Part shown: piece by piece, positions 7,611 through 23,847 of the stretch
Position numbering within the stretch: the first letter of the stretch is position 1
Layout of the letters: each line of letters opens with the position of its first letter
From: Halobacteriales archaeon QS_4_69_34
GTDB lineage: Archaea; Halobacteriota; Halobacteria; Halobacteriales; Halococcaceae
Direction of reading: 5' to 3'
NCBI GenBank assembly: GCA_003021045.1
Contig: PXRN01000010.1
Span: forward strand, 248,001 to 312,000
Length of the DNA stretch: 64,000 nt
The notes under the pieces: model-generated
What the model saw: the letters and a program-made list of their open reading frames with translations, nothing else
The model's database searches: none
What the model was told of the DNA's origin: nothing
Translations under genes and position numbers: made by a program

Positions 7611-9257
7611 TCAGTTCACCTGTTCGAACAGCGACTGAACGTCGACGACGCCGAACTCGTCGTCCCGGTTGAAGTCGAACGCTCCGGGGTTGTTCTGTAC
7701 TGCGGGGTCGTCCCGGTTCGTGAACAACGCTTGCGCGTCGACTACGTCCGCCTCGCCGTCGCCGTTGACGTCCTCGTAGCGCCCGTCGCCGTCGGAGTCG
7801 CGCGGGGGCTGGCCGTTACCCGTGACGTCCGGCGGTCCCCCGTTCGCTGGCGGTCCCCCATCCGAGGACACCTCGCCCTGAACGTAAAAGAGGTTGTTCC
7901 GGTAGGTGGTCGTCGGGTCGTCGGTCGCCCCCTTGTCGTAGACCTCCCGGCCGTAGGTGACGTGGATGCGGTCCTCGGGACCGACCTCGACCTCGAAGAA
8001 GTCCTCGGGTTCGCCGCCGTCCGTGGCGGCGGGCTCGTCGTCGAGCTTGACGAGCGTCCAGCCCGGCGAGCCCGCGCGAGCGTCGGTCGTCACGAGTACG
8101 TAGGGGAACCAGTTCGAGGCCTGGGATCTGTCCGTCGAGTTCTCCGCTACCGGAACGTCCTCGGTAGCGTAGAAAGCGACCGCCACCAACCCCTCGCTGC
8201 CGCCGCTGATCCACTGTTTGGTGAACGATCCCTCGAACGGCGTGATGTCGAGGGTTTCGAAGCCGCCGTCACGACGACGCGTGAAGTTGAGGATTCCCGG
8301 CTCGTCGTCGAAGGGGTCGTCGTCGGCCCAGACGTGGTAGTCGTTGCCCGCGCGGTCGGTCGCGCTCCACGCCGGGAAGGGATCGGACGACGTCGTCTCG
8401 TAGCTGTCGACGATCTCTCGGTCGATGGTCCGCCCGTTGTCGTCGCTCGTGAAGACGGCGAACTTCAGGCCGTCGTCCATCTCGACCGGCGCACCGAAGA
8501 AGACCTCCTCGGCGTTTGCCTTGCTCTCGGCGAGCGAGACGTATTCGCCCGTCTCGAGTGCCTTCCCCGTGGTGAACGTGTTGCCGCCGTCCTCCGAGCG
8601 GTAGAAGTCGATCCGTCCGTCGTACTTGTCCGTCGGGTCGGGCGTGCTGACGCCGTTGTTCCCGAGGTAGTAGACGATTCCGTCGCCGTGGGCGCGGATC
8701 CACGGGCGATCGTCGGCCCGCGCCGTCCCCATCACCTTCTCGAGCTCGAAGACGGGGCCGTCCTCGGTCGCCCGCCAGCGATAGAAGAAGTTGTCGCCGA
8801 GGTCGGTATCACAGTAGTAGATCCCGTCGTTGTCGTCGATGGCGATGTCGCCCTCGAAGGCGAACGACTCCTCTCTGATCCCCGCGGGCGAGGGCATCTC
8901 CTGCCAGGTATCGCCGCCGTCGGCGCTGTACCACATGTAACTCGACAGCTGGGTGCCCTCGTTGGTGACGCTCGCCTTGTGGGCGGTCGAGTAGATGTAC
9001 CCGAACCGGTCGACGTGGACGCTCGGCTCGTAGCCGTAGTCCGGTGGCTCGTTCATCTGCACGGGCTCCCCGAAGCTCGTGCGCGGCCCATCGGCGTTGG
9101 TGCGCTGGGCCGCGACGCTGTCGCTCAGCGGGAACAGTGCAGCTCCCCCCGCTGCTGCCCCGGCGGCCCGCATCACCGACCGGCGGGTCATCCCGCCGTC
9201 GGTTCGCAGTTTGTCCGTCCGGTTCGTGCTGGCGCTCTCGCTCGGTTCGTCCGCCAT
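7611..9257 (-). CDS. Tat-exported BNR/sialidase-like protein with C-terminal dockerin-type domain
   Basis: 548 aa secreted protein. A Tat signal (MTRRSVMRAAGAAAGGAALF) is followed by a long beta-rich region with Asp-box/BNR-like repeats (YSADGGDTWQEMP, YRSEDGGNTF, FTSDDNGRT) typical of six-bladed sialidase-type propellers. The last 62 residues form two EF-hand-like calcium loops, DVNGDGEADVVD and DFNRDDEFGVVD, preceded by an overlapping DSDGDGRYED loop: a dockerin-type domain shared with five other proteins of this window. No catalytic set is clear, so it may be a glycosidase or only a binding propeller. ATG at 9257 (MADEPSES) gives the normal pre-Tat segment; longer starts are Arg-rich shadow. 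It lies upstream of nothing co-directional and is divergent from the ABC permease. Confidence 0.85.
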   Translation of the reverse strand: MADEPSESASTNRTDKLRTDGGMTRRSVMRAAGAAAGGAALFPLSDSVAAQRTNADGPRTSFGEPVQMNEPPDYGYEPSVHVDRFGYIYSTAHKASVTNEGTQLSSYMWYSADGGDTWQEMPSPAGIREESFAFEGDIAIDDNDGIYYCDTDLGDNFFYRWRATEDGPVFELEKVMGTARADDRPWIRAHGDGIVYYLGNNGVSTPDPTDKYDGRIDFYRSEDGGNTFTTGKALETGEYVSLAESKANAEEVFFGAPVEMDDGLKFAVFTSDDNGRTIDREIVDSYETTSSDPFPAWSATDRAGNDYHVWADDDPFDDEPGILNFTRRRDGGFETLDITPFEGSFTKQWISGGSEGLVAVAFYATEDVPVAENSTDRSQASNWFPYVLVTTDARAGSPGWTLVKLDDEPAATDGGEPEDFFEVEVGPEDRIHVTYGREVYDKGATDDPTTTYRNNLFYVQGEVSSDGGPPANGGPPDVTGNGQPPRDSDGDGRYEDVNGDGEADVVDAQALFTNRDDPAVQNNPGAFDFNRDDEFGVVDVQSLFEQVN

Positions 9258-9522
9258 GTCCCTACGGCGAGAGCGGGGCACAAAAGCACCCGGCCTAACG
9301 GATTTGGTGTAGGGCGATCGGGCGACGGCCGGGAGTCCCGGCTCCGAAACGACTATCCGCGAGTGCCCGCTCGTCCGGGCGTGCAGCCAGCACGGCCGGG
9401 CACCGCCGAGCGACCGGGCGTCGACGAGCCGGACTCGCCCGCGGGCCCCTCCCCGTGGGAGCCCGCGGACGGACCGTCGGCCGAGCGACCGTCCGACGCC
9501 GGGCCGCTCGTCTGAGTCGGCG

Positions 9523-11145
9523 ATGGCGACGGACCGATCCACGGGCATCCGCGACCAGTTCGGGCGCGACGGCGAGCTCCCGCTCGGGCCGACCCTGCTC
9601 TCGGGGGCCGTCGTGGCGGCCACGCTCTTCCCGCTGGTCTGGGTCGTCGCCGCCGCACTCGACGCCGAGGGCACGTTGGCGCTGCTCTCCCGACCGGGAA
9701 CCTGGGAGGTGTTCCTCAACAGCGTCGTCCTCGTCGTCGCCGTTACCGCCGCCTGCCTCGTCCTCGGCGTCCCCGCGGCCTACCTCACCGCGCGCACCGA
9801 CCTCCCCTTCCGGCGCGCGTTCGCCGTCCTGCTCGCGCTCCCGCTCGTGATCCCCTCCTACATCGGCGCGTTCACCTTCGTCGCCGCGTTCGGCCCGCGC
9901 GGCACGCTTCAGGATCTCCTTCTCCCGCTCGGGATCGAGCGCCTCCCCTCGATCTACGGGCTGGGCGGCGCGGCGCTCGTCCTGACGCTCTATACCTACC
10001 CGTACGTGTTCGTCACCACCCGCGCGGCGCTGCGCTCGATGGACACCCGGCTCGTCGACGCCGCGCGCACCCTCGGCCACGCTCGGCGGGAGGCGTTCGG
10101 GCGTGTCATCGCCCCCCAGATCGGTCCCGCGGTCGGTGCCGGGAGCCTGCTGTCGGCTCTGTACGCGCTCTCGGATTTCGGGACGCCCGCGATCATGCGC
10201 TTCGACGCGTTCACGCGGGTGATCTACGTGGCCTCCGGCGACGCCCTCGGCGGCGGGCGCGACCTCGCGGCGCTACTCTCTTTGCAGCTCGTGACCGTCG
10301 CGCTGGTGCTTCTCGCGGTCGAGTCGCGGCTGAGCGGCGCGGGCGTGCGGAGCGACCGTACCGACGCGCGAGCGCGGCGTGTTCCGCTCGGGCGCTGGCG
10401 CTGGCCCGCTGCGGCCGCCTGTGGCGTCGTCGTCGCCCTCGCGCTCGCGGTCCCGCTGGCCGTGCTCGGCGATTGGCTGGTTGGCAGTCGCACGGTCGCC
10501 CGGGAGGTGGTCGGATTCACGCCCGCCGCAGTGTTCAACAGCGTCGGCGTGGCGGGTGCGGCGGCGCTCGCGGCGGCGCTCGCGTCGCTGCCGGTCGCGT
10601 ACCTCGCGAACAGGTCGGAATCGCCCGTGGCGCGATTGTTCGAGCGCGCCGCCTACGTCGGCTACGCGGTGCCGGGCGTCGTGATGGGCCTCGCGCTCGT
10701 CTTCTTCGGCGCGGAGTACGGTGGCGCGCTGTATCGGAACGGGGTCGTCCTCCTCCCTCTCCTCGTGTTCGCCTACGTGGTGCGATTCCTCCCCCAGTCT
10801 GTCGGCCCGACGCGTGCCGCCTTCACACAGGTGGGCGCGTCGCTCCCCGAGGCGGCGCGCACGCTCGGGTGCTCGCCGCTGAGGGCCTTTCGCCGGGTGA
10901 CGCTGCCCCTCGTCGCGTCCGGCGTCCTCGGCGGTGCAGCGCTCGTCTTCCTCACGACGATGCGGGAGTTGCCGGCGACGCTCCTCCTGCGGCCGGCGGG
11001 CTTCGAGACACTCGTCACGCGGCTCTGGACCGCCTACCGCGCCGGCTACCCCGCCGAGGCGGCCCTCCCCGCGCTGGCGCTGCTGGTCGTGAGCGCGGCT
11101 TCGATGGCCGTCGTCTTCGGGATGGAGGGCTACGACCTCGGGTGA
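9523..11145 (+). CDS. ABC transporter permease, fused two-domain type (iron(III)/FbpB-like)
   Basis: 540 aa inner-membrane permease with about twelve helices in two homologous halves, each a binding-protein-dependent transport domain. EAA loops that contact the ATPase are visible in both: DAARTLGHARREAFGRVIAP in the first half and EAARTLGCSPLRAFRRVTLP in the second. Fusion of both permease domains in one chain is characteristic of ferric-iron (FbpB/SfuB) and some thiamine or phosphonate systems. The start MATDRSTGIRDQ precedes the first helix directly. Its likely partner is the substrate-binding lipoprotein that converges on it from the minus strand; the ATPase gene is not in the window. Iron as substrate is an inference from fusion type and partner. 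Confidence 0.9.
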   Translation: MATDRSTGIRDQFGRDGELPLGPTLLSGAVVAATLFPLVWVVAAALDAEGTLALLSRPGTWEVFLNSVVLVVAVTAACLVLGVPAAYLTARTDLPFRRAFAVLLALPLVIPSYIGAFTFVAAFGPRGTLQDLLLPLGIERLPSIYGLGGAALVLTLYTYPYVFVTTRAALRSMDTRLVDAARTLGHARREAFGRVIAPQIGPAVGAGSLLSALYALSDFGTPAIMRFDAFTRVIYVASGDALGGGRDLAALLSLQLVTVALVLLAVESRLSGAGVRSDRTDARARRVPLGRWRWPAAAACGVVVALALAVPLAVLGDWLVGSRTVAREVVGFTPAAVFNSVGVAGAAALAAALASLPVAYLANRSESPVARLFERAAYVGYAVPGVVMGLALVFFGAEYGGALYRNGVVLLPLLVFAYVVRFLPQSVGPTRAAFTQVGASLPEAARTLGCSPLRAFRRVTLPLVASGVLGGAALVFLTTMRELPATLLLRPAGFETLVTRLWTAYRAGYPAEAALPALALLVVSAASMAVVFGMEGYDLG

Positions 11146-11221
11146 GCGGTTCGGGGCGGCCGCCGGGACGCCGGTGATAAGGCAGCGAGGACCGCGGGAA
11201 GTAGCGAGCCGGGCCACCGAC

Positions 11222-12400
11222 TCACTCGATCAGACCGACGTCCCGGAGCAGTTCGAGCGTCCCCGCCAGATCGGTGAGATCCGCGGGGCCGATCTCGGGC
11301 GTGTTGATCTCCGAGAGCGCCGGCAGTCCCGGCATCGGGTCGACGCCCTCGATGACCGGGTACTCGTAGCGGTCGGGGATGGCGAAGTACTCCTGGGCCT
11401 CCGCCGACAGCAGGTAGCGTACGAGGCCGGCGGCCGTCTCCGGATCGCGCGCCGAGCCGAGCACGCCCGCGCCAGCGCCCGCGAGCACCGACGCCGAGTC
11501 GTTTTTCGTGAACGTGATGTCGATGGGGGGGTCCGACCGGGCGTCGAGGATGCGCTTGTGATAGTAATGCGTGCTGAAACCGACCGCGACCTCGCCGTCG
11601 GCGACCGCCTTGTTCACGCCGAAGCCGCCGCTGTAGCTCTTGGGATCGAGGTCGATCATCTTCCGGAACCACTGCTTGGTGCGCTCCTCGCCTTCGAGGA
11701 CGCGCATCGCCGTGACGAACGCGTGGAACGTCGCCTTCGCGGGCGGCCAACCGACCGCGTTCTCGAACTGGCTCTGCCCGGGGAAATCGAGGACCGTGTC
11801 GGGGATCTCCTCGGGAGAGATCATGTCGGTGTTGTACGGCACCGCCCGCGCGCGCCCGGAGGTGACGACCCACTGGCCGTCGTCGTCCTGCCACAGCTCC
11901 GGCAGCATCGAAAGTACCGCGTCGGGCAGTCGCGTCGTGCGACCTTTCGACTTCAGCGCGCCGAGCGTCCCGGGGACGTTGATTGAGTAAACCACGTCCG
12001 CGCGGGTGTTCTCGCCCGCCGTGAGCACCCGGTTGGCCAGCCGGCTCGCCGACCCGTAGAGGACGTCGAGTCCGAGCTCGGGGTTGATCGCGGAGATATA
12101 CTCCAGCAGCGGGCGCACCAGCCGCTCGCTGCGGCCCGAAAAGACCGTCAGCGACCCCGAGAGCGGGGGGAGATCCGCCATCGGGGCTCCTCCCGGCTCC
12201 GGCCGGGAGCCGGGCCGTCCCTCGAACGGCGGGGTCGCCCGCGTGCTCGCCGTGGTCGTCGCCCGCGGGGACCGACCGCCGGTGGTGTTTCCGAGACAGC
12301 CCGCGAGCGCGGCGAACGTGCCCGCACCCGTCGCCGCGAGGACGTCGCGCCGTCGTCGGTCGATCGTGCTTCGCCGTGTGTCGTCGGTGTCGCGTGTCAT
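11222..12400 (-). CDS. Substrate-binding lipoprotein of an iron(III)-type ABC transporter
   Basis: 392 aa periplasmic-type binding protein. The N-terminus combines a twin-arginine motif (DRRRRDVLAATGAG) and a lipobox (LAGC, Cys about residue 35), so it should be Tat-exported and lipid-anchored, the usual haloarchaeal solution. A Thr/Pro-rich tether follows, then the extracellular-binding fold starting LTVFSGRSERLVRPLLE, with a two-lobe pattern including DVVYSINVPGTLGAL and the Tyr-containing GFSTHYYHKRIL segment typical of FbpA-like ferric binding proteins. It is encoded head-on to the fused permease 76 bp away instead of in one operon, which is unusual for a transporter. The substrate assignment is tentative. 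Confidence 0.85.
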   Translation of the reverse strand: MTRDTDDTRRSTIDRRRRDVLAATGAGTFAALAGCLGNTTGGRSPRATTTASTRATPPFEGRPGSRPEPGGAPMADLPPLSGSLTVFSGRSERLVRPLLEYISAINPELGLDVLYGSASRLANRVLTAGENTRADVVYSINVPGTLGALKSKGRTTRLPDAVLSMLPELWQDDDGQWVVTSGRARAVPYNTDMISPEEIPDTVLDFPGQSQFENAVGWPPAKATFHAFVTAMRVLEGEERTKQWFRKMIDLDPKSYSGGFGVNKAVADGEVAVGFSTHYYHKRILDARSDPPIDITFTKNDSASVLAGAGAGVLGSARDPETAAGLVRYLLSAEAQEYFAIPDRYEYPVIEGVDPMPGLPALSEINTPEIGPADLTDLAGTLELLRDVGLIE

Positions 12401-12565
12401 CTATCGGTCGGATGGGTCGTGTTCACTGTGGCAGCCGACTCGGCGCGTTCGTCCACTGTGAGCGGACGCTTGCGTCCGAGACTCGACCGCGAGACGGTTC
12501 GACGATCGAACCCGGTGGGCCATCGGTTGCGGCCGTAGCCGGATCGGTCGAGCGGGGGGATGAAC

Positions 12566-14362
12566 TCAGGTGTTCTCGACGAACAGCGCCTGCACGTCGA
12601 CGACGTTCACCGCGTCGTCGCCCGCTGTGCCGCCACTGAAGTCGAACGCGTCGGCGTTGTTCCGAACGCTCGCGTCCCCGCGGTTGGCGAACAGCGCCTG
12701 GACGTCCACCACGTTGGCCTGCACGTCGCCGTTGACGTTCTCGAAGCGCCCGTCGCAGTCGACGTCGGTCGCCGGCTGGCCGTCGCCGGTCACGTCGACG
12801 TTCAGCCCGCCCGCGCTCGGGCCGGCGACCTGCGAGGCGACGTAGGTCTGCTGGGTGTCGATGTCGTCGTCGGGCCGGTCGTCGGTGTAAGCGATGTGGG
12901 CCAACCCCTGCTGGTCGAGCGTCATATAGAAGACGTCCACCAGCTCGCGCCCGCCGGAACACCCGGTACCGCCCTGACAGACCGGGCCGACGTGGACGAC
13001 GTGGTCGCTGGCCTCGACCTGCGAAATCTTCGGCTCGCCGTCGCCGAGCGCGTTCTCGACCTGCGCGAAGTAGACGCGCCACTCCGAGCCCTCGACTTGG
13101 TTGTCCTCGGCCGGCGAGGCGTACCACGTGAAGTTCGCCACGCCGTCTTCGGCGGCGACCCACGGGAAGATGCTCGTGTTCGTCTCCGGGCCCGAATTGA
13201 CCTGTATCCGGTCGCTCCACGTCGTGCCCTTGTCGGTCGAGAACGAGTAGTAGACATTCGAGTTGTCCGACCACGAGACGTAGAGGTTGCCGTCGCTGTC
13301 GATGTCCTGTACCGGGAAGAGGTGGCCGATGCTTCGCCCGCTGGGATCGGTGTGGACCTTGTTGACGGTCCAGGAGTCCGCGCCGTCCGTAGAGACCGAC
13401 ATGTACATCGTGTCCCCTGCGCTCGACTCGCTCCCGTCGTTCGTATCGCCCCAGAGCTGATAGACAGTGCCGTCCTCGCGGTCGGTCCGGATGTTCCCGA
13501 TATCGTTGCCGAGATAGGCTCGTACGAACGACTGAGTGTTTCCGAGCGTCGCGGGCGTCTTGTTGACGAACGTCGTGCCGGCGTCGGTCGTCTTCACGAC
13601 TTGGATCTCGAAGGTCTCGACGTCGTGGAAGGACATGTAGACGGTGCTCTCGCCGAAGGCGTCGATCCACTGGCGGTCGACGCCCTTGAACCCGGCCGAG
13701 CTGAACGGGTTCTGGGTGGTCCACGTCTCGCCCCTGTCCGTCGAGGTCAAAAAAAAAAGGAGATCCCCGAGATAGAGGCTCGCCACGTAGAGGTTCCCCC
13801 CAGGGGTGCCCTCGTAGGGCTCGCCGACGGCCATCGCGATGTCGCCGCCGCCGAGGCCGTCGGTCTCCTGACCGCCAGGGAAGCCGTCGGGCTGGCCGAC
13901 GTACTCCCAGGTCTGCCCGCAGTCGAACGAGCGCCAGACGTCGGAGCCGCCATCGGAGAGGCCGCGGATGCCGCCCGCGAACAGGACTCCTTCGGCGTCG
14001 GAGACGATCTGGGGCTCGACGTCGTCTTGGGTGTCGCCCTCCACGGTGGGAAACGGGTTGATGAGGTGGCGGTTCCTGTCGAAGGCGAGCCCGCCGTCGC
14101 CCGGTGTGACGGGGCGGTCCGGATCGGGCGACGGCTCGAAGTCCTGTTCTTCGGCCGTCGACTTACGCGCCGCGACGGTCCTGGTCGCGAGGCCGGACGC
14201 GCCGACGCCGAGTGCGCTCGCGCCCGCCGCCGCTCCCGTCGTCCGCAGCACCGAGCGCCGGGAGACGTCGCTCGCGTTCTCGGTCCGCTCGTCGTCATCG
14301 GTTTTCTCGCCGTCCTCCGTTGGTCTGAGTGACACACGGACGACGACCGGTCGTAGACTCAT
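12566..14362 (-). CDS. Tat-exported BNR-repeat propeller protein with C-terminal dockerin-type domain
   Basis: 598 aa secreted protein with a Tat motif (SRRSVLRTTGAAAGASALG) and several BNR/Asp-box turns (STDRGETWTTQ, TTDAGTTFVN, STDGADSWTV, STDKGTTWSD) indicating a sialidase-like propeller. The C-terminal 66 residues are the dockerin-type domain, but divergent: the first loop reads DVDCDGRFENVNGDVQANVVD, with V replacing the usual Gly, and the second loop is lengthened and lacks the regular D-x-N-x-D ligand set (FDFSGGTAGDDAVNVVD). A GTG at 14335 (SLRPTEDGEK) is an alternative start closer to the Tat motif. A run of ten T residues in the coding strand near 13749-13758 encodes LLFFL. It lies just downstream of the broken M14 peptidase gene. 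Confidence 0.85.
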   Translation of the reverse strand: MSLRPVVVRVSLRPTEDGEKTDDDERTENASDVSRRSVLRTTGAAAGASALGVGASGLATRTVAARKSTAEEQDFEPSPDPDRPVTPGDGGLAFDRNRHLINPFPTVEGDTQDDVEPQIVSDAEGVLFAGGIRGLSDGGSDVWRSFDCGQTWEYVGQPDGFPGGQETDGLGGGDIAMAVGEPYEGTPGGNLYVASLYLGDLLFFLTSTDRGETWTTQNPFSSAGFKGVDRQWIDAFGESTVYMSFHDVETFEIQVVKTTDAGTTFVNKTPATLGNTQSFVRAYLGNDIGNIRTDREDGTVYQLWGDTNDGSESSAGDTMYMSVSTDGADSWTVNKVHTDPSGRSIGHLFPVQDIDSDGNLYVSWSDNSNVYYSFSTDKGTTWSDRIQVNSGPETNTSIFPWVAAEDGVANFTWYASPAEDNQVEGSEWRVYFAQVENALGDGEPKISQVEASDHVVHVGPVCQGGTGCSGGRELVDVFYMTLDQQGLAHIAYTDDRPDDDIDTQQTYVASQVAGPSAGGLNVDVTGDGQPATDVDCDGRFENVNGDVQANVVDVQALFANRGDASVRNNADAFDFSGGTAGDDAVNVVDVQALFVENT

Positions 14363-14458
14363 CAATGCCGGTCCTAGCTGGATAGGGACTCGGATCGCCC
14401 GTCGATCGTCGGCCGGCCGCCCGTTCGTCGCTTCCGTCGACCGACGCCCCACGCCGCC

Positions 14459-17287
14459 TCAGTCGCCCTCGCCCGGGCCGAAGGTCTTCACGACCTCGCC
14501 GTCGACCCGGCGGACCTGCCAGAAGCCCAGCGCGTTCGTCAGGATAGTGTGACCGAGGAAGGAGACGGCGTAATCGAGCAGGCCAAACGGGTGGAGGTGG
14601 GCCTGGGAGGCCGGCGGCAGGAGTCCCCCGAGCAGGTGGATCGAGCCGCCGCTTTTGTCCCTGCCCGTTCCTGTTCCGTCGTCGGCCGCGAGCGTCCCGG
14701 CGGCGACCAGCCCGTCGGTCGTGCCCGCGACGGTGCCGCCGGCGTCGACGAAGGAGGTCTCGTCGAGCAGCCACATCGGTGCCTCGGTGCCCGTCGAGTA
14801 GCCGAGCGGCGCGATCTTCCAGAGCTCGCGCTGGATCGGTCGCGTGTCCGCGAGTAGCGGGTGTTCGCCGTTGCGCTCGCCGACGTTGGCAATGTAGAGC
14901 TCCTCGCGGATCACGTCGTCCGGTGCGAGGTCCGCGGCGGGGCCGGCGTCCATCGCGCCCGTGAGGGTGATCCCGGAGTCCGTGAGCACGAGGTTCCCGC
15001 CGCCCGCGACGAACGAGTCGAGCGCGTGTCCACGTAGTCTCCGTCTCCGATCCCCTCGTCGTGGATGACGACCGCGTTGTCGTAGTCCGAGAGCGCGCCG
15101 TCGGCGACCTCGGCGATCGTGACCGGTTCGACGGGCCCGTCGACGTCGGCGGCGTACTCCTCGAAGTAGCGCAACGGCGTCACCTCGTAGGGCCGCTGCT
15201 CGTAGCCGAGCACCTCGCGCGGGTCGGGATTCGTCCCCGACACCCGGAGGGTGGTGAACTCGACGGCGACCGGCGCGACGGCGGTCCCGACCGTGTCGGC
15301 CGTCGCCGCGTCGGTCCCGGCGTCGGTGGCCGAACTATCCGTCACGGCCGGCCGAGCGAGTTCGACCGTCCATGTCCCGGCTGCCGGCTCCGCGACCGTC
15401 CAGTCAGCCATCCCACAGCAGCGCGCGCCCGGCCGGTCGCCCCCCGGGCGCGGACTCCCGGACCGTCGTCCCGTCGGGAGCGACGAGCCGCGCGGCGACG
15501 AGCGCGCGCTCGGCGTGTGGATGGATCGAGAGCGTCCGTGTCCCCGTCGGCACTCCTGTGGCGACGCTCGTCGACTCGCCGCTCGCGAGCCGTGTGCCCT
15601 CCGTGCTCGTCGCGGTGCTCGTCGCGCCGAAGTCGAGGTCGGCTGACCGACGGGTGAGCGCGTCGGTCGTCACGTAAGCCGTCGACGCGCCGCCCGACTC
15701 GATCGTCGAGGTGACCTCTCGGGTGGCGTAGGCCGCGAGCGTCCGGATCGCGGTGCGATAGCCCGTCACCTGCATCTCGACCAGCTCGGGATCGTAGACG
15801 TTCGCGCCGACGATATGGGAGTAGGCCATCTCGAAGTCCAGCGAGATCAGATCGAACCCACCCACTGCCTCGGGCTGGGGGAGCCAATCCCCCAAAAATC
15901 CCGTCCCGGAGTAGCCGATGGTGTCCCAGACGGCCGCGTAGTCGAACGCCTGCTCGGGGAGGGTACCGAACCCGAGCGGCGCGACGTTGGTGTCGCCCGT
16001 GACCGTCTCCTGGGCGTCGCCCGCGGCCGTCCACGTGTCGAGGGCGTCCTCGAGGGTGCCGTCGATCGCCAAGCACAGCTGATAGAGCTCGTGGAACTCC
16101 CCGTTGTCGAACTTCCCCTGGCCGATGAGCCCCTCGACGAAGTTCGAGGAGTTGATCGCGCCGTGCAGGTCGGTCCCGTACTCCAGATTCTCGTAGCTCC
16201 GGAGGTGCTCGACGAGCGCCAGCGCGTCCGGCGCGCGCGTTCCCGTCCGCTCGGGTACGTCACCGTCGACGCCGGGCTCGTCGTCGGCGAGGTTCGCGCC
16301 CTCGGGATCGGCGGGGTAGTGAGCGGGATCGATCCACCCGACGGCGGGGTACTGGCGGTTGGTGTCGTACACCGCGGCGTTGCCACGCTCGTAGAAGGGC
16401 GCGACGGGTGCGCCGCCGTCCGGCCCGAGGAACTGCCAGCCCGACTCGTACTGGGGGTACTTGGCGACCCAGCCGTCCGGGTTCGGGTAAACGAACACCA
16501 ACACCACGTCGTCGAGCAGCGCTTCGGTCTCGCCCTCGGTGCCACGGAGAAGTCCCTCGATGAACCGCGAGCCCGCTTCGGCTCCGGCGCGTTCGAGGCC
16601 GTGTAGCGAGAGGCTGTAGAGCACCTTCGTCTTCTCGCGGAAGCTCTCCGCGTCGTCGACGTCGTTCGTCACCTCGGCGACGTGGACGCCCTGGGGTCCT
16701 CGCGCGCGCTGACCTCGTTGTAGTGGCCGGGACTCTCCCCGACCGAGTAAAAGCGGAGCTGGTCGGGGTGCTCGGCTTCGAGATGCGAGAGCCCGCTCAC
16801 CATCTGCTCGTAGTCGACGAAGCCCGTCGAGCGCCGGGGCTCTGGAAACACCCCGAGCGGGTAGTAGTCGAGCCGCCAGAACGGGTTCGAACCCGGCGAG
16901 TGCGAAAGCGTCTCCGAGGTCGGCAGTTCCGCGACCCCGGCGGCCTGTGTCGTCGTCAGCTTCGCGTAGGCCGCGGGGCGGGGCTCGGTCGTGGTGAAGA
17001 CCTCGCCGTCGACCGCCGCGTCCATCGCGTCGGGGCTCGAGGCGTCGGCGAAGGTGACGAGCGTCGGCACCGCGTACTCGGGGGGCGTGTGATTGAGGAC
17101 GTACTCGTACTCGGCGTCCATCGCGCTCGCCGAGACGCTCGCGGTGGCGTTGGCCGGCAGCGCGAGCGCGCCCGCCGTCGCGGCCGCGAGCCGCGCGAAG
17201 TCGCGCCGGCTGACGCCGACGCCCGAAAACCGATCGCGGTCGTCTCCGTTCGGAGCGTCCGTCGATCCACCGTCGTGGTGGACCCAT
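14459..17287 (-). pseudogene. Zinc carboxypeptidase (M14) gene broken by several frameshifts
   Basis: The minus strand encodes a Tat-signal M14 peptidase spread over alternating frames. A Tat segment (SRRDFARLAAATAGALALP) and N-terminal domain run to about 16696, where a G4 run (C4 in the gene) seems one base short; the next frame carries the zinc motif HGLERAGAE, the DLHGAINSSNF His and the SLDFEMAYSHI acidic motif. It stops at 15404 and the protein resumes at MADWTVAEPAAGTWTVEL in another frame, then shifts again near 15027-15031 (DYVD then ALDSFVAGGGN). The last part resembles a glutamine-amidotransferase-like tail. No start codon is in frame with the Tat segment, implying a further shift near 17270. 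Catalytic motifs survive, so loss is recent or the errors are technical. There is no dockerin domain. Confidence 0.8.
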
Positions 17288-17446
17288 CAAAGAACCACAC
17301 CCTAACTGGTTAGGGTCCACGGGCTTCCGGCGGACCGGACGGCCGCTCGCGCCGCCAGCCTGTCGACGGGATGGAAGGGACGGCCGTCTACCCTCCGGAG
17401 ACGGCACGACGCCGGAGACAGCGCTCCCGGTCGGTTTCTTCCCCCA

Positions 17447-19066
17447 TCAGGCCACTTCGCCGAACAGCCGCTGGATGTCCACCACGTCGAACGTACCATC
17501 GCCGTTGAAGTCGAACGCCCCGGGGTGCTCGCGCACCGTTCCGCTCTCGCGGTTGGCGAAGAGCGCCTGCACGTCCACGACCGTACACTCGCCGTCGCCG
17601 TCGACGTCCTCGTACTTTCCATCGTCATCGGGGTCGGTCGCGCGCCGGAAGGACGGATCAACCGGCCCGAACGGCGCACATCCGGCCTTGATGTCCGTAC
17701 AGTCGTGTTCGGTGCCGTCGCGCTCCGGGAACGCTCGCGCCGATTCGTAGTAGAAGCTCAGCCGATCGCGCCACTCGGCGTCGGCGAGCAGCCGCGCGTC
17801 GGCGCTCTCGTAGCCCTGTTCGCCGGGTTCCTTCAGCCAGCGGTCGAGCCACGCCAGCGAGTAGTGATCGGCCAGCGGGTTGCCGAACCCGCCGTCGCCG
17901 CCGGGGTCCCACGCGGTCGCCGGGAAGGTCGGCACGAGCGACCACTCGTAGTGGGTGCCCCCGCGGATCTGGAGCTGGTAGGTGGGAACGCCCGCCGCGC
18001 GCCACCGCTGGAACCCGCCCTTCTTCGCCGCGGGGTCGGGCGGCTCCTCTTTGGGCTGGGGCGTCAGGTAGTAGTCGGCCGATTGGCCCATCGCCGGGAC
18101 CCGAGGAACGACCTCGTAGCTCAGCTGGTCGGTCACGTCGTCCGCGAGGTTATCCCACGCGACGGCGGCGTCGACGGGGTTCGTCGCGTCGAGCCGACCC
18201 GGCCACGGCTCCAGTCCCTGCACGACGCTCGCGCCCGCCGCGCCAAGCGAGTGCCCGACGGCCCCCAACCTACTGGGATCGATCCGCTCGGCGAAGGGAT
18301 TGTGCGTCACGACTGGCGCGGGCACGTCGGTGTGGCCCTCGTTGTAGGGGTAGTGTGTTTCGGGCGTCGAACGGAAGAAGTCGATGGCGTCGACCTGGTT
18401 GGTCACGAACACGTCGGGGTTCGCGTTCGTGCCGCGCTCGCCGTCCGGCGTCGTCGTGTCCGAGCGCCCCTGCCCCCGCGGATCGTAGGTGAGCACGACG
18501 TAGCCGTTCGCGACCAAGGTCAGGGCGAACCACCAGTAGGCCGTCTCGGGGGCCTGCACCGAGCCGTTCGTGACGACGACCCCGGGGAGGGCGTCGCCCG
18601 GTCCCGAGTCGGCGGGAGCCCACACCCGCCCGGAGAGGCGTGCGCCCCCGCGGTCGCGGAACGCGACGCGCTCGCGCTCGCCCACGCCACCGTAGAAGGA
18701 ATCGCCGTCGTAGAGGGGCTCGGTCGCCGGGTAGAGATAGGGATCGCCGGTACACTGCTCGGCCCACTCCCGACAGAGGTTGCCCTCGCTCCGCCAGCCC
18801 GGTTCCTCGACCGTCCGCCGCTCGTACTCGGCGACGTTCAGTTCGCTCTGTTCGCGCCAGCGCTCTTGGAAGACCGGGTTCTGTTGCTCCGCGGGGGCTT
18901 CCCCCGTCTTCGCGTAGTTCCGCTCCTCGCGGGCGAACCACGCCGGCGAGGGGTACTCGGGTTCGTCCCCGCTCTCGGCCGCGCTCGCGGGTCCGGCAGC
19001 GACGAGGCCGGCCGCGCCGGTCGTTCTGATCGCTTTCAGCAGCGTCCGTCGGGTGGGATCGTTCAT
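17447..19066 (-). CDS. Tat-exported alpha/beta hydrolase with C-terminal dockerin-type domain
   Basis: 539 aa secreted hydrolase. The N-terminal Tat motif is TRRTLLKAIRTTGAAGLVAA. The catalytic domain has the dienelactone-hydrolase/esterase landmarks: YDPRGQGRSDT (oxyanion region), the nucleophile elbow GHSLGAAGAS, a late Asp region and GGTHYEWS supplying the probable catalytic His. The C-terminal 62 residues hold the dockerin-type domain in near-canonical form, DVDGDGECTVVD and DFNGDGTFDVVD, preceded by the overlapping DPDDDGKYED loop. ATG at 19066 (MNDPTRRTLL) places the twin arginines normally. It lies 14 bp downstream of the penicillin-acylase gene, so the two are likely cotranscribed. 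The substrate (ester, lactone or peptide) is not determined by sequence. Confidence 0.88.
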   Translation of the reverse strand: MNDPTRRTLLKAIRTTGAAGLVAAGPASAAESGDEPEYPSPAWFAREERNYAKTGEAPAEQQNPVFQERWREQSELNVAEYERRTVEEPGWRSEGNLCREWAEQCTGDPYLYPATEPLYDGDSFYGGVGERERVAFRDRGGARLSGRVWAPADSGPGDALPGVVVTNGSVQAPETAYWWFALTLVANGYVVLTYDPRGQGRSDTTTPDGERGTNANPDVFVTNQVDAIDFFRSTPETHYPYNEGHTDVPAPVVTHNPFAERIDPSRLGAVGHSLGAAGASVVQGLEPWPGRLDATNPVDAAVAWDNLADDVTDQLSYEVVPRVPAMGQSADYYLTPQPKEEPPDPAAKKGGFQRWRAAGVPTYQLQIRGGTHYEWSLVPTFPATAWDPGGDGGFGNPLADHYSLAWLDRWLKEPGEQGYESADARLLADAEWRDRLSFYYESARAFPERDGTEHDCTDIKAGCAPFGPVDPSFRRATDPDDDGKYEDVDGDGECTVVDVQALFANRESGTVREHPGAFDFNGDGTFDVVDIQRLFGEVA

Positions 19067-19080
19067 TGTGCTGTCCCCTC

Positions 19081-21924
19081 TCAGTTCCCCTGTTCCTCGA
19101 CGAACAGCGCCTGCACGTCCACGACGTCGACCTCGCCGTTCGAGGCGTCGAAGTTGAACGCGCTCGGGTTGTTCTGTACGGTCTCGCCGTCGCGGTTGGC
19201 GAACAGCGCCTGTACGTCCACGATGTCGAAGCTGCCGTCGCCGTTGACGTCCTCGAACTTCCCGTCGCAGTCGGGATCGTTCGGCGGGTTCTCCGACGAA
19301 CCGACCGGCTCGTCGGGACCGTCCTCGCCGGCGTTGGGGTCCCGGATAGTGAGCGTCTGGCTCGTCGTCGTCACCGCCTCGACACCCGCGCGGGTGGAGG
19401 GCAGCGGCCGGTACTCGAAGCTCCGGTAGCGCCCGAGCTGGTCGGTGAGTCGATCGGGCTCGGTGCCGGTGGCCTGGAGGGTCGCCAGCTCCTCGGGCGA
19501 GATGTACCCCGAGTTCGACGGTGGGATGATCCCCCGCGAGTTCTCGAGGCCCGGCTGGTCGAGCGCGACCACCTGATTCCAGCTGCCGCGGTTGACCATC
19601 TCGATCTCGTTCTGCTTCGCTGCGCCGATCGGCATGAACTTGCTTGTGTGCTCTTCGAGCAGCCACTGGCTGGGCAGCGGCGAGCCGAACTGCTCGGTCA
19701 GCGTGTCGGCCGCCGCTTCGAGCGCGTCGCGGAGGACCTCCCCGCGGGTCTCGTCCCCGGCGGTCTCCACGTCGTCGAACCAGTTGCGGTTCGTCGTCCC
19801 TTCTAGAGCGTCGACGAGTGTCACCATCTTGTCCGCGCGGCCGTGGTCGGCGGCGTGGCGGGTCACCGGGGGCTCGAAGTCCAGAGAGCGAACCCGATCG
19901 CCGAGCTCGTCGCCGAAGGTGCGCGCCAGCAGCTCGTGCATCGTCTCGTCGTAGATCGCGTGACCGGGATCGTCGTAGCGGCCGTCATCGTCCTCGTCGC
20001 GCCACGCGTAGCCCGTCTCGGTCCAGGCTTCGAGCTCGTCGGCCATCGCGTTCAACTGTGGATCGCTGCTCGCGCGTGCGGCCTCGATTATGTGTGGTAC
20101 GGGCCCGAAGGCGACCGAGTCGTGGGTCGCCGCCGATCGGAGGATCGCCCTGACGTCGTCGAGCGCGAGGCTGTCGCCGGTGTCATCGAGGCGCTTCCGA
20201 ACGAATCGGTCGAGCACCTCGGCGCGGTGGATCGACCCCCAGTTCTGTGGCATGTCGCCCGCGCGCCACCCCTTGGCCGGCCCGTTGTTCCAGTTGGCGA
20301 CGTAGCCCTTCGAGGGATTCCTGACGACCGTCCCCAGATCGAGTCCGACGAGCCCGTCGAGCCACTCGTGGCCGGTGTCGGTCCGGGGCAGCCGGAAGTC
20401 CGGGCCCGGCTCGCGGTCGGGGACGTCCGCGAGGTGGTAGTAGGCGATGTCCTCGTCGTCGGCGTAGAGGAAGTTGAAACTGAACGAAAAGTCCGAGAGT
20501 GCCTCCTCGAAGCCGTCTCGGTCGTCGCGCCGGCCGAGGGTAACCCACTCGAACGCCCCGGTCAGGAGCTTGTCCCGGACCGTGGTCCGCTGGACCCACG
20601 CGACGTTCGCCTCGGCGTTGCGCGCGATGACGGTCATCTCGTCGCCCTCCTCGGTGATCCGGCAGACCTCCTGTTCGACTACGCGCGGGTCGCCCCCGCC
20701 GATGGCGTCGCCCACCGGCGAGCCGTTGTGGGTCACGGTTCGGCAGTCCATCTCGTGCCACTCGCCCTTCCAGCGATAGCGGTGTTTGTCGTCCGGATCG
20801 AGTTCGACGGCGATCGTGTCGACCATGTCCTCGCGGGCGCTCGTGACCGACCACGCGAAGTCGGGGGTGCGGCCGATGAGCACACCCGGCGCGCCCGGGA
20901 CGCCGAAGCCCACGACGTCGTAGCCTGCGCCGTGGAGTCCCACCTCGTAGATCGCCGGCGGCTTGAAGTGGCCCAGCTGGGGGCCGCCGAACATCATCGG
21001 CTGGCCCGTCTCGGTGTGCTCGCCGTCGACGACGAGCGCGTTGCTGCCCCACTTGAACCCCTCCATGATCCCTTGACCGGTGCGCTCGCCGTTCAGGACC
21101 GCCTCGGAGAGCTGGACGTCCGCCTCGATGCCCCAGATCTCCGCGCCGGGGGCGGCGTCGGCGCGCGCGAGCTGCTCGTCGGGCACCTCCTCGTAGGGGA
21201 TGACCCCCTCGCCGCCCTCGACGACCTTGTCCGACTCGTCGATCGAGGTGTAGTGGCTGTCCCGCGTTCGGAGCCAGTTGAAGTCCTCGTAGGCGTCGTA
21301 GGCCGCCCGTTCCGAGCCCAGCGTCTCCCTCAACTTGGCGAAGTCCTTCGCGTTGCCGAGCTCGCTGCCGCCGGCGACGCCGAAGATGCCGATCAGGTAG
21401 GCGACCACCGCCATCGTGTCGACGGGCTCCCACGGCTCGGGGGCGTGGCCGATCGCCCCGAACTCGCCCGGCAGATCCCCGGTGGCCGCGAGCTCCGTCA
21501 TCTTCCTGTTGATGCCCGCGCTGTACCCGCGGATCATCTGTTTCGCCTCCGGCGAGGCCTTCTCGAACTGCGCTTGGAGCTTCTCGCGGCTGTAGAGGTC
21601 GCGTTTCACCTGGACGTCCGAGGGGATCTGCGAGGAGCCGAGCACTTCCGCGGAGTTGCCGAAGCCGACGTGCCGGAGGACGTCCATCTCGAACAGCCGG
21701 TCGCGGGCCTGCACGTAGCCGTTGCCGTAGCCAAGCGCGTAGACGTCCTCCGCGCCGTAGACGTGGCTCACCTCGCGGTCGTCGGTCAGGATCTCGATCT
21801 CGTCGAGCGTGCAGTCCGGGTTCGGCGTGCCCGCCTGTGCGCCGGCGGTGTCGATGCCCCCGTTTAGCAGCCCGGCACCCGCCGTCCCGGCGAGCGCGGA
21901 CTTCACGAAGGTTCGTCGTTGCAT
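19081..21924 (-). CDS. Tat-exported penicillin-acylase-family Ntn hydrolase with dockerin-type domain
   Basis: 947 aa secreted Ntn hydrolase of the penicillin amidase (S45) family. A Tat signal (MQRRTFVKSALAGTAGAGLL) precedes the alpha-chain region (VYALGYGNGYVQARDRLFEM, a family hallmark), a spacer, and the autocleavage site KWGSNALVV, where Ser becomes the N-terminal nucleophile of the beta chain (SNAW/SNAL). The beta chain shows FGGPQLGHFKPPAIYEVGLH and GVPGAPGVLIGRTPDFAWSV. The family hydrolyses amide bonds in beta-lactams, N-acyl-homoserine lactones and acyl-peptides; substrate here is unknown. The final 65 residues are the dockerin-type domain (DVNGDGSFDIVD; second loop altered to NFDASNGEVDVVD). 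It is the middle gene of a three-gene co-directional set. Confidence 0.92.
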   Translation of the reverse strand: MQRRTFVKSALAGTAGAGLLNGGIDTAGAQAGTPNPDCTLDEIEILTDDREVSHVYGAEDVYALGYGNGYVQARDRLFEMDVLRHVGFGNSAEVLGSSQIPSDVQVKRDLYSREKLQAQFEKASPEAKQMIRGYSAGINRKMTELAATGDLPGEFGAIGHAPEPWEPVDTMAVVAYLIGIFGVAGGSELGNAKDFAKLRETLGSERAAYDAYEDFNWLRTRDSHYTSIDESDKVVEGGEGVIPYEEVPDEQLARADAAPGAEIWGIEADVQLSEAVLNGERTGQGIMEGFKWGSNALVVDGEHTETGQPMMFGGPQLGHFKPPAIYEVGLHGAGYDVVGFGVPGAPGVLIGRTPDFAWSVTSAREDMVDTIAVELDPDDKHRYRWKGEWHEMDCRTVTHNGSPVGDAIGGGDPRVVEQEVCRITEEGDEMTVIARNAEANVAWVQRTTVRDKLLTGAFEWVTLGRRDDRDGFEEALSDFSFSFNFLYADDEDIAYYHLADVPDREPGPDFRLPRTDTGHEWLDGLVGLDLGTVVRNPSKGYVANWNNGPAKGWRAGDMPQNWGSIHRAEVLDRFVRKRLDDTGDSLALDDVRAILRSAATHDSVAFGPVPHIIEAARASSDPQLNAMADELEAWTETGYAWRDEDDDGRYDDPGHAIYDETMHELLARTFGDELGDRVRSLDFEPPVTRHAADHGRADKMVTLVDALEGTTNRNWFDDVETAGDETRGEVLRDALEAAADTLTEQFGSPLPSQWLLEEHTSKFMPIGAAKQNEIEMVNRGSWNQVVALDQPGLENSRGIIPPSNSGYISPEELATLQATGTEPDRLTDQLGRYRSFEYRPLPSTRAGVEAVTTTSQTLTIRDPNAGEDGPDEPVGSSENPPNDPDCDGKFEDVNGDGSFDIVDVQALFANRDGETVQNNPSAFNFDASNGEVDVVDVQALFVEEQGN

Positions 21925-22002
21925 GGGTGGTGTTCTCGTGTATCAGTCGGTGTCGTACGTACGATTCGTCGGCGACTTCCGGGATCGAGCGGCGACCGCG
22001 CC

Positions 22003-23847
22003 TCAGGAGACCTCCCGGAACAGCCGCTGGACGTCGACCACGTCGAACCCGCCGTCCTCGTTGAAGTCGAACGCCCCCGGACTGCGCCGGACGGTCTCGC
22101 CCTCTCGATTGGCAAACAGCCGCTGGACGTCGATCACGTCGGCCTCGCAGTTCCCGGTGACGTCCTCGTACTCGCCGTCGGTGTCTGGGTCCGCGGCCGG
22201 TTCGCCCTGCGGGCCGACGACGCCGGGGCCGCTCGCGCGCGCCGGAACGGTCAGCGAGGCGGGCCGCTCCGCGGAGTGGTGGATCGTCGCGCCGGCTCCT
22301 TGGGGTTCCGGGCGAAAGCCAGCGATGGAGTTGCCGTCCTGTACCGTCGCCACCCGCAGCCGAAGCGTCTCGCACGGTTCGATCCGGCGCTGGACCCCGA
22401 TCAGGTCGAGTTCGATGCGTCCGGACTCGGCTACTTCTGTCGCCGCGAGCTGGTTGTCGAACGGGCCGATCTCCGTGCCGTCCGGTTTCACCCGGTAGAG
22501 CCCGAACAGCAGGTTCTCCGTGGCCCCGATCGGCTCGATTTCGGCGCTAAACTGGGAGATCCCGAAGATCTCCGTCTCGCGGTCGATGGGGTAATCGAAG
22601 GCCACGCCCGACCGGCCGTCGGCGTCCGTGACACGCGTCGAGCCCTTCTCCCTGTTCGTCGCGTCGGCGAGCGAGAACTCGCGTCGCTCGGTGTCCGACG
22701 GCGGGAAGCCGTCGGCAGTGCGGAACTCCTCCGATTGCACCTCGTAGAAGCTCACCTTCGGGAGGTCCGCCGGCGGGCCGCCACCGACGTGTTCGTCGAT
22801 CCACCGGAGCGCCCGCCGGTCGTTGTAGGACTTCTGGCGATCGCCGGCCATCCGGGTCGCGGTGTGTCCGCCCTCGAAGAAGACGAAGCGGGTGGGCACG
22901 CCGCTGGCTTCGAGGTCGCGGGCGTTGTAGACCGGCTCGTTCGGGACGAACAGCGTGTCGGGCCAGCCTTGGACGAAGAGTGTGGGTGCCGTAATGTCCC
23001 GCGCCGAGCCGAGCCCGGTGTCGTACCGCGGCGAGCGCTTCTCAAAGTACGTCCGTGTCTCCGCCGAGAGGTCGCCGGTCGCCTGCCCTTCGAGGTAGAA
23101 CTGGTACAACTGCGAGTCCTGCCCGCCGAGGCGGTCCTCGATGGAGCCCTGATCGCGCGAACCCTCCGCCCCGAACGCCAACAGGAGGGTCTGCCATCCG
23201 CTCTTGTAGACGCTGTTGGGCGCGAGCGAGTACGTCAGGTCCCACCACGCCCACCGCGGGACGATGGCGTCGATCCGGTCGTCGCTCTCGGCCAACCCTT
23301 TTCCCGCGCCCTCGGCCGCGGCGGTGTTGAGCTGGATGCCTCCCGCGTAGGAGAGCCCGTCCATCCCGACGCGTGGGTCCTGTGGCCCGTCGTTTTCGAC
23401 GCTCGCCACGTCCTCGGCGAGGTAGGTGATGAGCCGCTGGGCGTCCTTGATCTCCTTGGGACCGTCGACGTTTACCTCGCCGCCGGAGGTGCCAAAGCCC
23501 CGGGAGTCGTACGTGAGTACGACGTAGCCGTTCTTCGCGTACATCGACGCCCACGGGTCGACGCTCGACCGGTCGGCACCGTAGCCGTGGGTCATCAGCA
23601 TGGCTGGATGTGGGCCCCCGGAGTTCGGCTCGTAGATGCTGGCGGCGAGCATCGTCCCGTCCCACGACTCGATATCGACGTCCTCGACGGTGAACGACTC
23701 CCCGCCCGACTGGGCGACGGCGCTCCCCGCTCCGGCCCCGGTTCCGGCCGCCGCGAGCGCGGCCGTCCCGCCGAGCAGCCGGAGCGCCTCGCGGCGCGTT
23801 CGCTTCCCGGTGTGTGCGCCACCGCTGTCGAGTTCGGTTCGTGTCAT
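22003..23847 (-). CDS. Tat-exported CocE/X-Pro-peptidase-type hydrolase with dockerin-type domain
   Basis: 614 aa secreted hydrolase of the CocE/NonD (peptidase S15) family. A Tat segment (KRTRREALRLLGGTAALAAA) leads into the alpha/beta-hydrolase domain: MLMTHGYGADRSSVDPWASM, YDSRGFGTSGGE, the S15 nucleophile motif GLSYAGG, VQGWPDTLFVPNE with the acidic residue and FFEGGHTATR with the His. A beta-sandwich PepX_C-like domain follows (DYPIDRETEIFGISQFSAEI). The C-terminal 62 residues are the dockerin-type domain, but its first canonical loop is degenerate (DVTGNCEADVID) whereas the second is intact (DFNEDGGFDVVD). ATG at 23847 is chosen over a start seven codons upstream because it leaves a normal pre-Tat region. 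It is first of three co-directional exoenzyme genes. Confidence 0.9.
   Translation of the reverse strand: MTRTELDSGGAHTGKRTRREALRLLGGTAALAAAGTGAGAGSAVAQSGGESFTVEDVDIESWDGTMLAASIYEPNSGGPHPAMLMTHGYGADRSSVDPWASMYAKNGYVVLTYDSRGFGTSGGEVNVDGPKEIKDAQRLITYLAEDVASVENDGPQDPRVGMDGLSYAGGIQLNTAAAEGAGKGLAESDDRIDAIVPRWAWWDLTYSLAPNSVYKSGWQTLLLAFGAEGSRDQGSIEDRLGGQDSQLYQFYLEGQATGDLSAETRTYFEKRSPRYDTGLGSARDITAPTLFVQGWPDTLFVPNEPVYNARDLEASGVPTRFVFFEGGHTATRMAGDRQKSYNDRRALRWIDEHVGGGPPADLPKVSFYEVQSEEFRTADGFPPSDTERREFSLADATNREKGSTRVTDADGRSGVAFDYPIDRETEIFGISQFSAEIEPIGATENLLFGLYRVKPDGTEIGPFDNQLAATEVAESGRIELDLIGVQRRIEPCETLRLRVATVQDGNSIAGFRPEPQGAGATIHHSAERPASLTVPARASGPGVVGPQGEPAADPDTDGEYEDVTGNCEADVIDVQRLFANREGETVRRSPGAFDFNEDGGFDVVDVQRLFREVS

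Follow-up and report, generated by a model that had tools for sequence, protein, structure and literature searches.

Type B dockerins of a haloarchaeon and the cohesin-like modules that may receive them

The stretch considered here, referred to as the window, comprises 64,000 nucleotides of the Halobacteriales archaeon QS_4_69_34 and corresponds to positions 248001-312000 of contig C10 in a source genome (G000) of 2.57 Mb, distributed over 38 contigs and 79% complete. Six genes on its minus strand, five of them within 16 kb, encode proteins with putative signals for twin-arginine translocation (Tat), and all six proteins end in the same domain of about 62 residues with two calcium loops, precisely where a preliminary description of this DNA had placed it. 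This shared tail, a predicted dockerin named type B, and the cohesin-like modules on which it may dock are the subject of this study. The six proteins and their domains, with E-values from profile A6, are the following:

7611-9257, minus strand: predicted Tat-exported, putative beta-propeller (BNR/sortilin-like), 548 aa, with Sortilin-Vps10 and BNR-type matches below the curated cut-off; C-terminal type B dockerin at 7617-7826 (genome C10:255617-255826), minus strand, E 9e-33.
12566-14362, minus strand: predicted Tat-exported, putative beta-propeller, 598 aa, BNR_2 below cut-off; C-terminal type B dockerin at 12572-12793, minus strand, with a 4-residue insertion in the second loop, E 2.4e-26.
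17447-19066, minus strand: predicted Tat-exported alpha/beta hydrolase (Pfam alpha/beta-hydrolase families), 539 aa; C-terminal type B dockerin at 17453-17659, minus strand, the copy modelled with AlphaFold2, E 7.9e-32, PF00404 above cut-off.
19081-21924, minus strand: predicted Tat-exported penicillin-amidase-type N-terminal nucleophile (Ntn) hydrolase, 947 aa (Penicil_amidase PF01804, 389 bits); C-terminal type B dockerin at 19093-19305, minus strand, with a 1-residue insertion in the second loop, E 1.8e-31.
22003-23847, minus strand: predicted Tat-exported CocE/S15 hydrolase of the alpha/beta-hydrolase fold, 614 aa (PF02129 and TIGR00976); C-terminal type B dockerin at 22009-22218, minus strand, E 4.8e-31.
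51548-53530, minus strand: predicted Tat-exported, putative right-handed beta-helix protein, 660 aa (PF13229 just below cut-off); C-terminal type B dockerin at 51560-51766, minus strand, E 1.4e-29.

Tat export had been proposed from the outset, and a heuristic check agreed with it, since each of the six N-termini has an RR motif with a hydrophobic stretch after it. The penicillin-acylase type of the Ntn enzyme was likewise clear from its Pfam match, and for the propellers BNR_2 and Sortilin-Vps10 were matched, but only below curated cut-offs. The 16-kb set, said to hold four unrelated folds, holds three, because the hydrolases at 17447 and 22003 have a common fold. Alignment of the six domains with 22 paralogs from the same genome yielded the consensus DxDxDGxYEDVNGDGxxDVVDVQALF ... 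AFDFNxDGxxDVVDVQxLF, and this 28-paralog alignment, together with the AlphaFold secondary structure, showed a helix after each of two 12-residue calcium loops, the whole spanning about 60 residues. The spacing within the domain, described as constant, is indeed so up to the AF pair, which stands at residues 40-41 from the first Asp in all six copies, but not in the second calcium loop, where two of the six copies are interrupted by the insertions listed above.

The identification of the tail as a dockerin was upheld by both sequence profile and predicted fold, the former including the hidden Markov model search that the preliminary description had recommended. Scores against Pfam PF00404, with its gathering cut-off of 22.9 bits, were weak to moderate, in which the whole protein exceeded the cut-off in one of the six cases (17447) and the isolated domain in two. 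Against solved structures, profile A6 matched the dockerins 2mte, 1daq, 2yik, 2ccl and 1ohz at E-values of 5e-5 to 3e-3, and EF-hand proteins such as 1jfj ranked above them. The AlphaFold2 model of the 17453-17659 domain had a predicted local distance difference test score (pLDDT) of 90, and its Foldseek comparison with the PDB returned, at ranks 1-10, dockerins of cohesin-dockerin complexes throughout, with template modelling (TM) scores by query of 0.43-0.54; the best E-value was 0.29, these values being weak because the domain is small. As judged by profile and model, the shared tail is thus a divergent type I dockerin. Canonical dockerins from two other haloarchaeal genomes (G043 and G210) were considered as relatives of the window set and ruled out, as they belong to another subclass.

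When the whole source genome was searched with profile A6, as had also been advised, the set proved far larger than the window, with 36 matched stretches corresponding to about 33 dockerin domains; Pfam Dockerin_1 gave 26 matches there, 14 of them over its cut-off. These dockerins are clustered beyond chance: 13 neighbouring pairs lie within 5 kb of each other against 2.1 expected, a number that none of 20,000 random placements attained, and five dockerins fell within 15 kb in 0.12% of random placements. The cargo is mixed and not dominated by plant-polysaccharide enzymes. In addition to the acylase, esterase-like hydrolases and other proteins of the window, it includes four subtilases, a purple acid phosphatase, a PhoD phosphatase, a nuclease, NosD/beta-helix proteins, an MmgE/PrpD protein, a GMC oxidoreductase and a glycosidase-like protein, glycosidase-like members being few. 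Nearly all carriers have the dockerin strictly at the C-terminus, and one has it internally (L047:6573-7739). That carrier lies in a second cluster of five dockerin proteins (L047:6573-17512), to which the MmgE/PrpD protein and the GMC oxidoreductase belong; no signal peptide was seen in these two. Three small proteins of 120, 146 and 168 aa (L058:8929-9291, L052:10938-11378 and L048:10087-10593) have a Sec-type signal and a dockerin joined by an acidic linker and nothing else, and could possibly act as adaptors or competitors.

The absence of a visible cohesin, stated for the window, holds for the window and not for the genome. Pfam Cohesin (PF00963) had no match in the source genome at E <= 10 and none over its cut-off in 18 genomes of the same family, and profile A2, representing canonical haloarchaeal cohesins, found nothing in the source genome and nothing convincing in its family. 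Elsewhere in the class, canonical cohesins exceed the Pfam cut-off in 140 of 394 genomes, with up to 12 matches per genome. The first result, from PF00963 and A2, was therefore that of an orphan dockerin with no cohesin in its genome, which was dropped once profile A3 had found divergent modules. A distinct beta-sandwich of about 135 residues was observed in other haloarchaea, either within type B dockerin proteins or next to them; a single divergent member (in G153) reaches Pfam Cohesin at 1.2e-7. The profile of this module aligned with canonical haloarchaeal cohesins in hhalign at 94.6-96.4%, and after removal of the G153 member it still aligned over its length at 94.6%. Profile A3 detected the divergent module in 166 of the 394 haloarchaeal genomes and, in the source genome, identified five modules in four secreted proteins, which were confirmed with A5 and of which none lies within the window:

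L096:5568-6206: C24 cohesin-like protein, 212 aa, with a signal peptide, one module and a PGF-CTERM-like tail.
L097:4935-6179: C10 cohesin-like protein (C10:29.7k), 414 aa, with a hydrophobic C-terminal segment followed by RRR.
L095:5404-6810: C13 cohesin-like protein, 468 aa, with two modules and no C-terminal anchor seen.
L053:8022-9197: C36 cohesin-like protein, 391 aa, adjoining a dockerin gene.

The C24 module was modelled by AlphaFold2 with a pLDDT of 95, and in the fold search with this model cohesins accounted for all 50 PDB matches listed (best E 5.5e-10 with TM 0.77; TM up to 0.78), among them the Archaeoglobus fulgidus cohesin 2xdh at 2.3e-8 and non-cellulosomal cohesins of Clostridium perfringens. 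The narrower profile A3 gave a single, irrelevant match in the PDB (8fjf, 0.0009), and the broader A5 was used instead; its best match among solved structures was the NagJ cohesin of C. perfringens, near full length, at E 4.7e-5. According to their predicted fold, the five modules are cohesin-like without being members of Pfam Cohesin. Tails of the PGF-CTERM type are processed by archaeosortase A for the surface attachment of proteins, and the source genome encodes an archaeosortase A (TIGR04125, 328 bits). The C24 tail reads GPGFG, a hydrophobic segment and RR, resembling PGF-CTERM by eye, and a relative at L111 passes TIGR04126, the NCBIfam model for PGF-CTERM, with 30.5 bits.

Across the same 394 genomes, type B dockerin and divergent cohesin occur together in 155, dockerin alone in 16, cohesin alone in 11 and neither in 212, which gives an odds ratio of 187 with kinship ignored; for Pfam Cohesin and the type B dockerin the corresponding odds ratio was 1.8. 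Among 29 loci chosen by their dockerin alone, 14 had the divergent cohesin within about 4 kb, in 10 of them as a separate open reading frame. In the family of the source genome the two domains are unfused, and the cohesin gene directly follows the dockerin gene in six loci where both were called (L053, L098, L099, L100, L102 and L103); at L101 the dockerin gene alone was called, and the cohesin match is known from the profile A3 search. In Haloferax gibbonsii, H. prahovense and Haloferax sp. Q22, a protein with cohesin and dockerin is followed by a cohesin protein with a PGF-type tail. Beyond the haloarchaea, a divergent cohesin adjoining or fused to a type B-like dockerin was seen in Candidatus Acetothermia, Methanogenium cariaci and an uncultured Methanomicrobiales archaeon (L138, L144 and L148).

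Loop positions 10-11, where the specificity of type I dockerins is known to reside, carry a VV-like dyad in nearly all source-genome dockerins, QA or RA in the unit of family f1 and VG in a third set. In the source genome, QA/RA is absent from 30 of the 31 tabulated dockerins, most of which have VV, IV, VI or AV. The cohesins next to QA/RA-dyad dockerins belong to one clade (support 100/99), those next to VG-dyad dockerins to another (99/99); with cohesin subclasses taken as clades of the tree, dockerin and cohesin subclasses appear to change together. At L109, L078 and L113, an enzyme with a VG-dyad dockerin is followed by a scaffold, which combines two cohesins with an IV/VV-dyad dockerin, and then by a further protein bearing two or three cohesins, a gene order that suggests a two-level arrangement.

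We consider it quite probable that these domains form a non-cellulosomal cohesin-dockerin system, in which type B dockerins would dock on divergent cohesin-like modules of the same cell's secreted proteins and keep hydrolases at the cell surface. The enzymes would be exported folded through Tat; outside, the two calcium loops would order the dockerin, which could then plug into a cohesin-like socket on another secreted protein. The C24 socket protein would be held at the surface by its PGF-CTERM-like tail, the two-cohesin C13 protein would permit at most pairwise assembly, and about 30 dockerin enzymes would compete for few socket types. As a net effect, about 30 hydrolases would remain on the surface of the cell in high salt rather than be lost to the brine. 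The preliminary description had offered a multi-enzyme surface complex or a shared calcium-dependent anchor or export tail. The anchor is the better supported half, because cohesin-like modules to which the dockerins could bind are encoded in the genome, some of them on proteins with surface-anchor-like C-termini. The complex finds little support, because no protein of the source genome has more than two cohesin modules, and an export role is unlikely, because the carriers already have Tat or Sec signals at the N-terminus. This limit of two cohesins per protein, together with the mixed cargo, means that the system is not a cellulosome, and surface display with occasional pairing describes it better; no carbohydrate-binding module was found among the NCBIfam matches of the four cohesin proteins, which were not scanned with Pfam.

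Several observations weigh against docking on the cohesin-like modules. Most window dockerins score under the Pfam cut-off, and five cohesin modules stand against about 33 dockerins, in a genome that is 79% complete. The co-occurrence statistic ignores phylogeny, fusions add trivial co-occurrence, and most of the sequences behind the first cohesin profile came from proteins with a dockerin. When the 16 dockerin-only genomes were searched again with A5, a cohesin was recovered in two, in one of them weakly, which leaves 14 with a dockerin and no detected cohesin; among these, G090, a single-contig and near-complete genome, has 5 type B dockerins and no divergent cohesin detected with A5. The loci behind the subclass labels are few and related, and TIGR04126 did not recognise the C24 tail. 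The near-complete genome G080 similarly has 7 type B dockerins and no divergent cohesin detected with A5, and in G080 and G090 a further dockerin partner may exist.

These two genomes, and the calcium-loop residues being among the most conserved positions, would also suit a tail that has no partner and serves as an autonomous calcium-stabilised C-terminal cap, protecting the protein in high salt. However, helix positions outside the loops (Q, L and F) are also nearly invariant, the subclass-specific dyad tracks the clade of the adjacent cohesin, and a cap leaves adjacency to and co-occurrence with a cohesin fold unexplained, which makes it improbable. A similarly low probability is given to a surface-retention tag read by something else, such as the S-layer or a transpeptidase-like enzyme, with the cohesin-like module serving another purpose. 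The nearly always C-terminal position recalls sorting tags and the cohesin count is low, but the domain is internal in one carrier, is followed by no hydrophobic segment or processing motif, and belongs to a recurrent two-gene unit of dockerin protein and cohesin protein that points to a direct pair. Also improbable is an accessory module that holds enzymes on an insoluble polymer as a carbohydrate-binding module does, a substrate-binding role stated for haloarchaeal type I dockerins (PMC10963439) and repeated later (PMC13260240), with no test described in the parts of these sources that deal with it: some carriers elsewhere are glycoside hydrolases, but the same tail on an acylase, subtilases, phosphatases, a nuclease, beta-helix proteins and a GMC oxidoreductase leaves no common substrate, the predicted fold is that of a dockerin, and a cohesin-like partner co-occurs.

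Non-cellulosomal archaeal cohesin-dockerin pairs are already known, and the proposed docking of type B dockerins on cohesin-like modules can be set beside several systems. The A. fulgidus pair to which the 2xdh cohesin belongs, AF2375/AF2376, is also archaeal and non-cellulosomal, with a matching cohesin fold and with adjacent genes for a cohesin-dockerin protein and a cohesin protein, as in L104, L107, L108 and L126-L128; it differs from the present case in that here there are about 33 dockerin domains in a single genome, a cohesin outside the reach of Pfam, and PGF-CTERM-like anchors on some socket proteins. The NagJ cohesin of C. perfringens (X82 module; 2jh2, 2ozn and 2w1n), the best profile match, joins secreted enzymes without a cellulosome, as proposed here; there, however, the cohesin is on a secreted enzyme, whereas here it is on mostly non-enzymatic and partly anchored proteins, and type B dockerins form another subclass. 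The type I pair of the Clostridium thermocellum cellulosome (1ohz, 1aoh and 4fl4) resembles the haloarchaeal one in the fold of both partners, the two symmetric calcium-loop repeats and the variable dyad at loop positions 10-11; unlike it, the source genome was not found to have a multi-cohesin scaffoldin with a carbohydrate-binding module, and its cargo is mixed hydrolases. Closer in taxonomy, the canonical clusters of class Halobacteria (L041-L044 in G043, G210 and G365) also combine cohesin proteins bearing PGF-CTERM-like tails with dockerin-bearing subtilase-like proteins, but their cohesins are recognised by Pfam and their dockerins are of another subclass; with their cohesin proteins reaching about 2000 aa, they constitute a separate haloarchaeal scaffoldin system. 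Anaerobic methanotrophic (ANME) archaea likewise have many dockerin-bearing proteins with inferred function only, and scaffoldin-like proteins with up to 5 cohesins (PMC9012536), against the maximum of two per protein in the source genome.

In the openly licensed literature, no cohesin partner was found described for haloarchaeal dockerins, and an earlier description elsewhere is possible. Haloarchaeal proteins are annotated with dockerins whose partner is unnamed, and a cohesin-like partner missed by Pfam would, if true, explain them. It would also account for how exoenzymes can stay with the cell in brine, and supply a salt-stable, orthogonal cohesin-dockerin toolkit. The two-gene unit of dockerin and cohesin is also present in cultivable Haloferax species, where docking could hence be tested. 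Tentatively, and with rather less confidence, it is proposed that haloarchaea widely use an unrecognised cohesin family, paired by subclass with matching dockerins, as a modular surface-docking system for the secretome. In some species, such as Halomicroarcula rubra F13 (L109), this system might have two levels, like those of cellulosomes though evolved on another cohesin branch: VG-dyad dockerins of enzymes would bind scaffold cohesins, and one more protein with several cohesins would receive the VV/IV-dyad dockerins of the scaffolds.

Among the dockerin genes of the window there are also neighbours of other kinds:

14459-17286, minus strand: M14 carboxypeptidase-like gene without a dockerin (PF00246 in 15404-16672).

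This gene, surrounded by dockerin genes of the same strand, is broken over at least three frames and is either a pseudogene or affected by assembly errors. Between two dockerin genes, at 9523-12400, there are a permease gene of the ATP-binding cassette (ABC) type on the plus strand and a solute-binding protein gene on the minus strand, which suggests that hydrolysis products are taken up.

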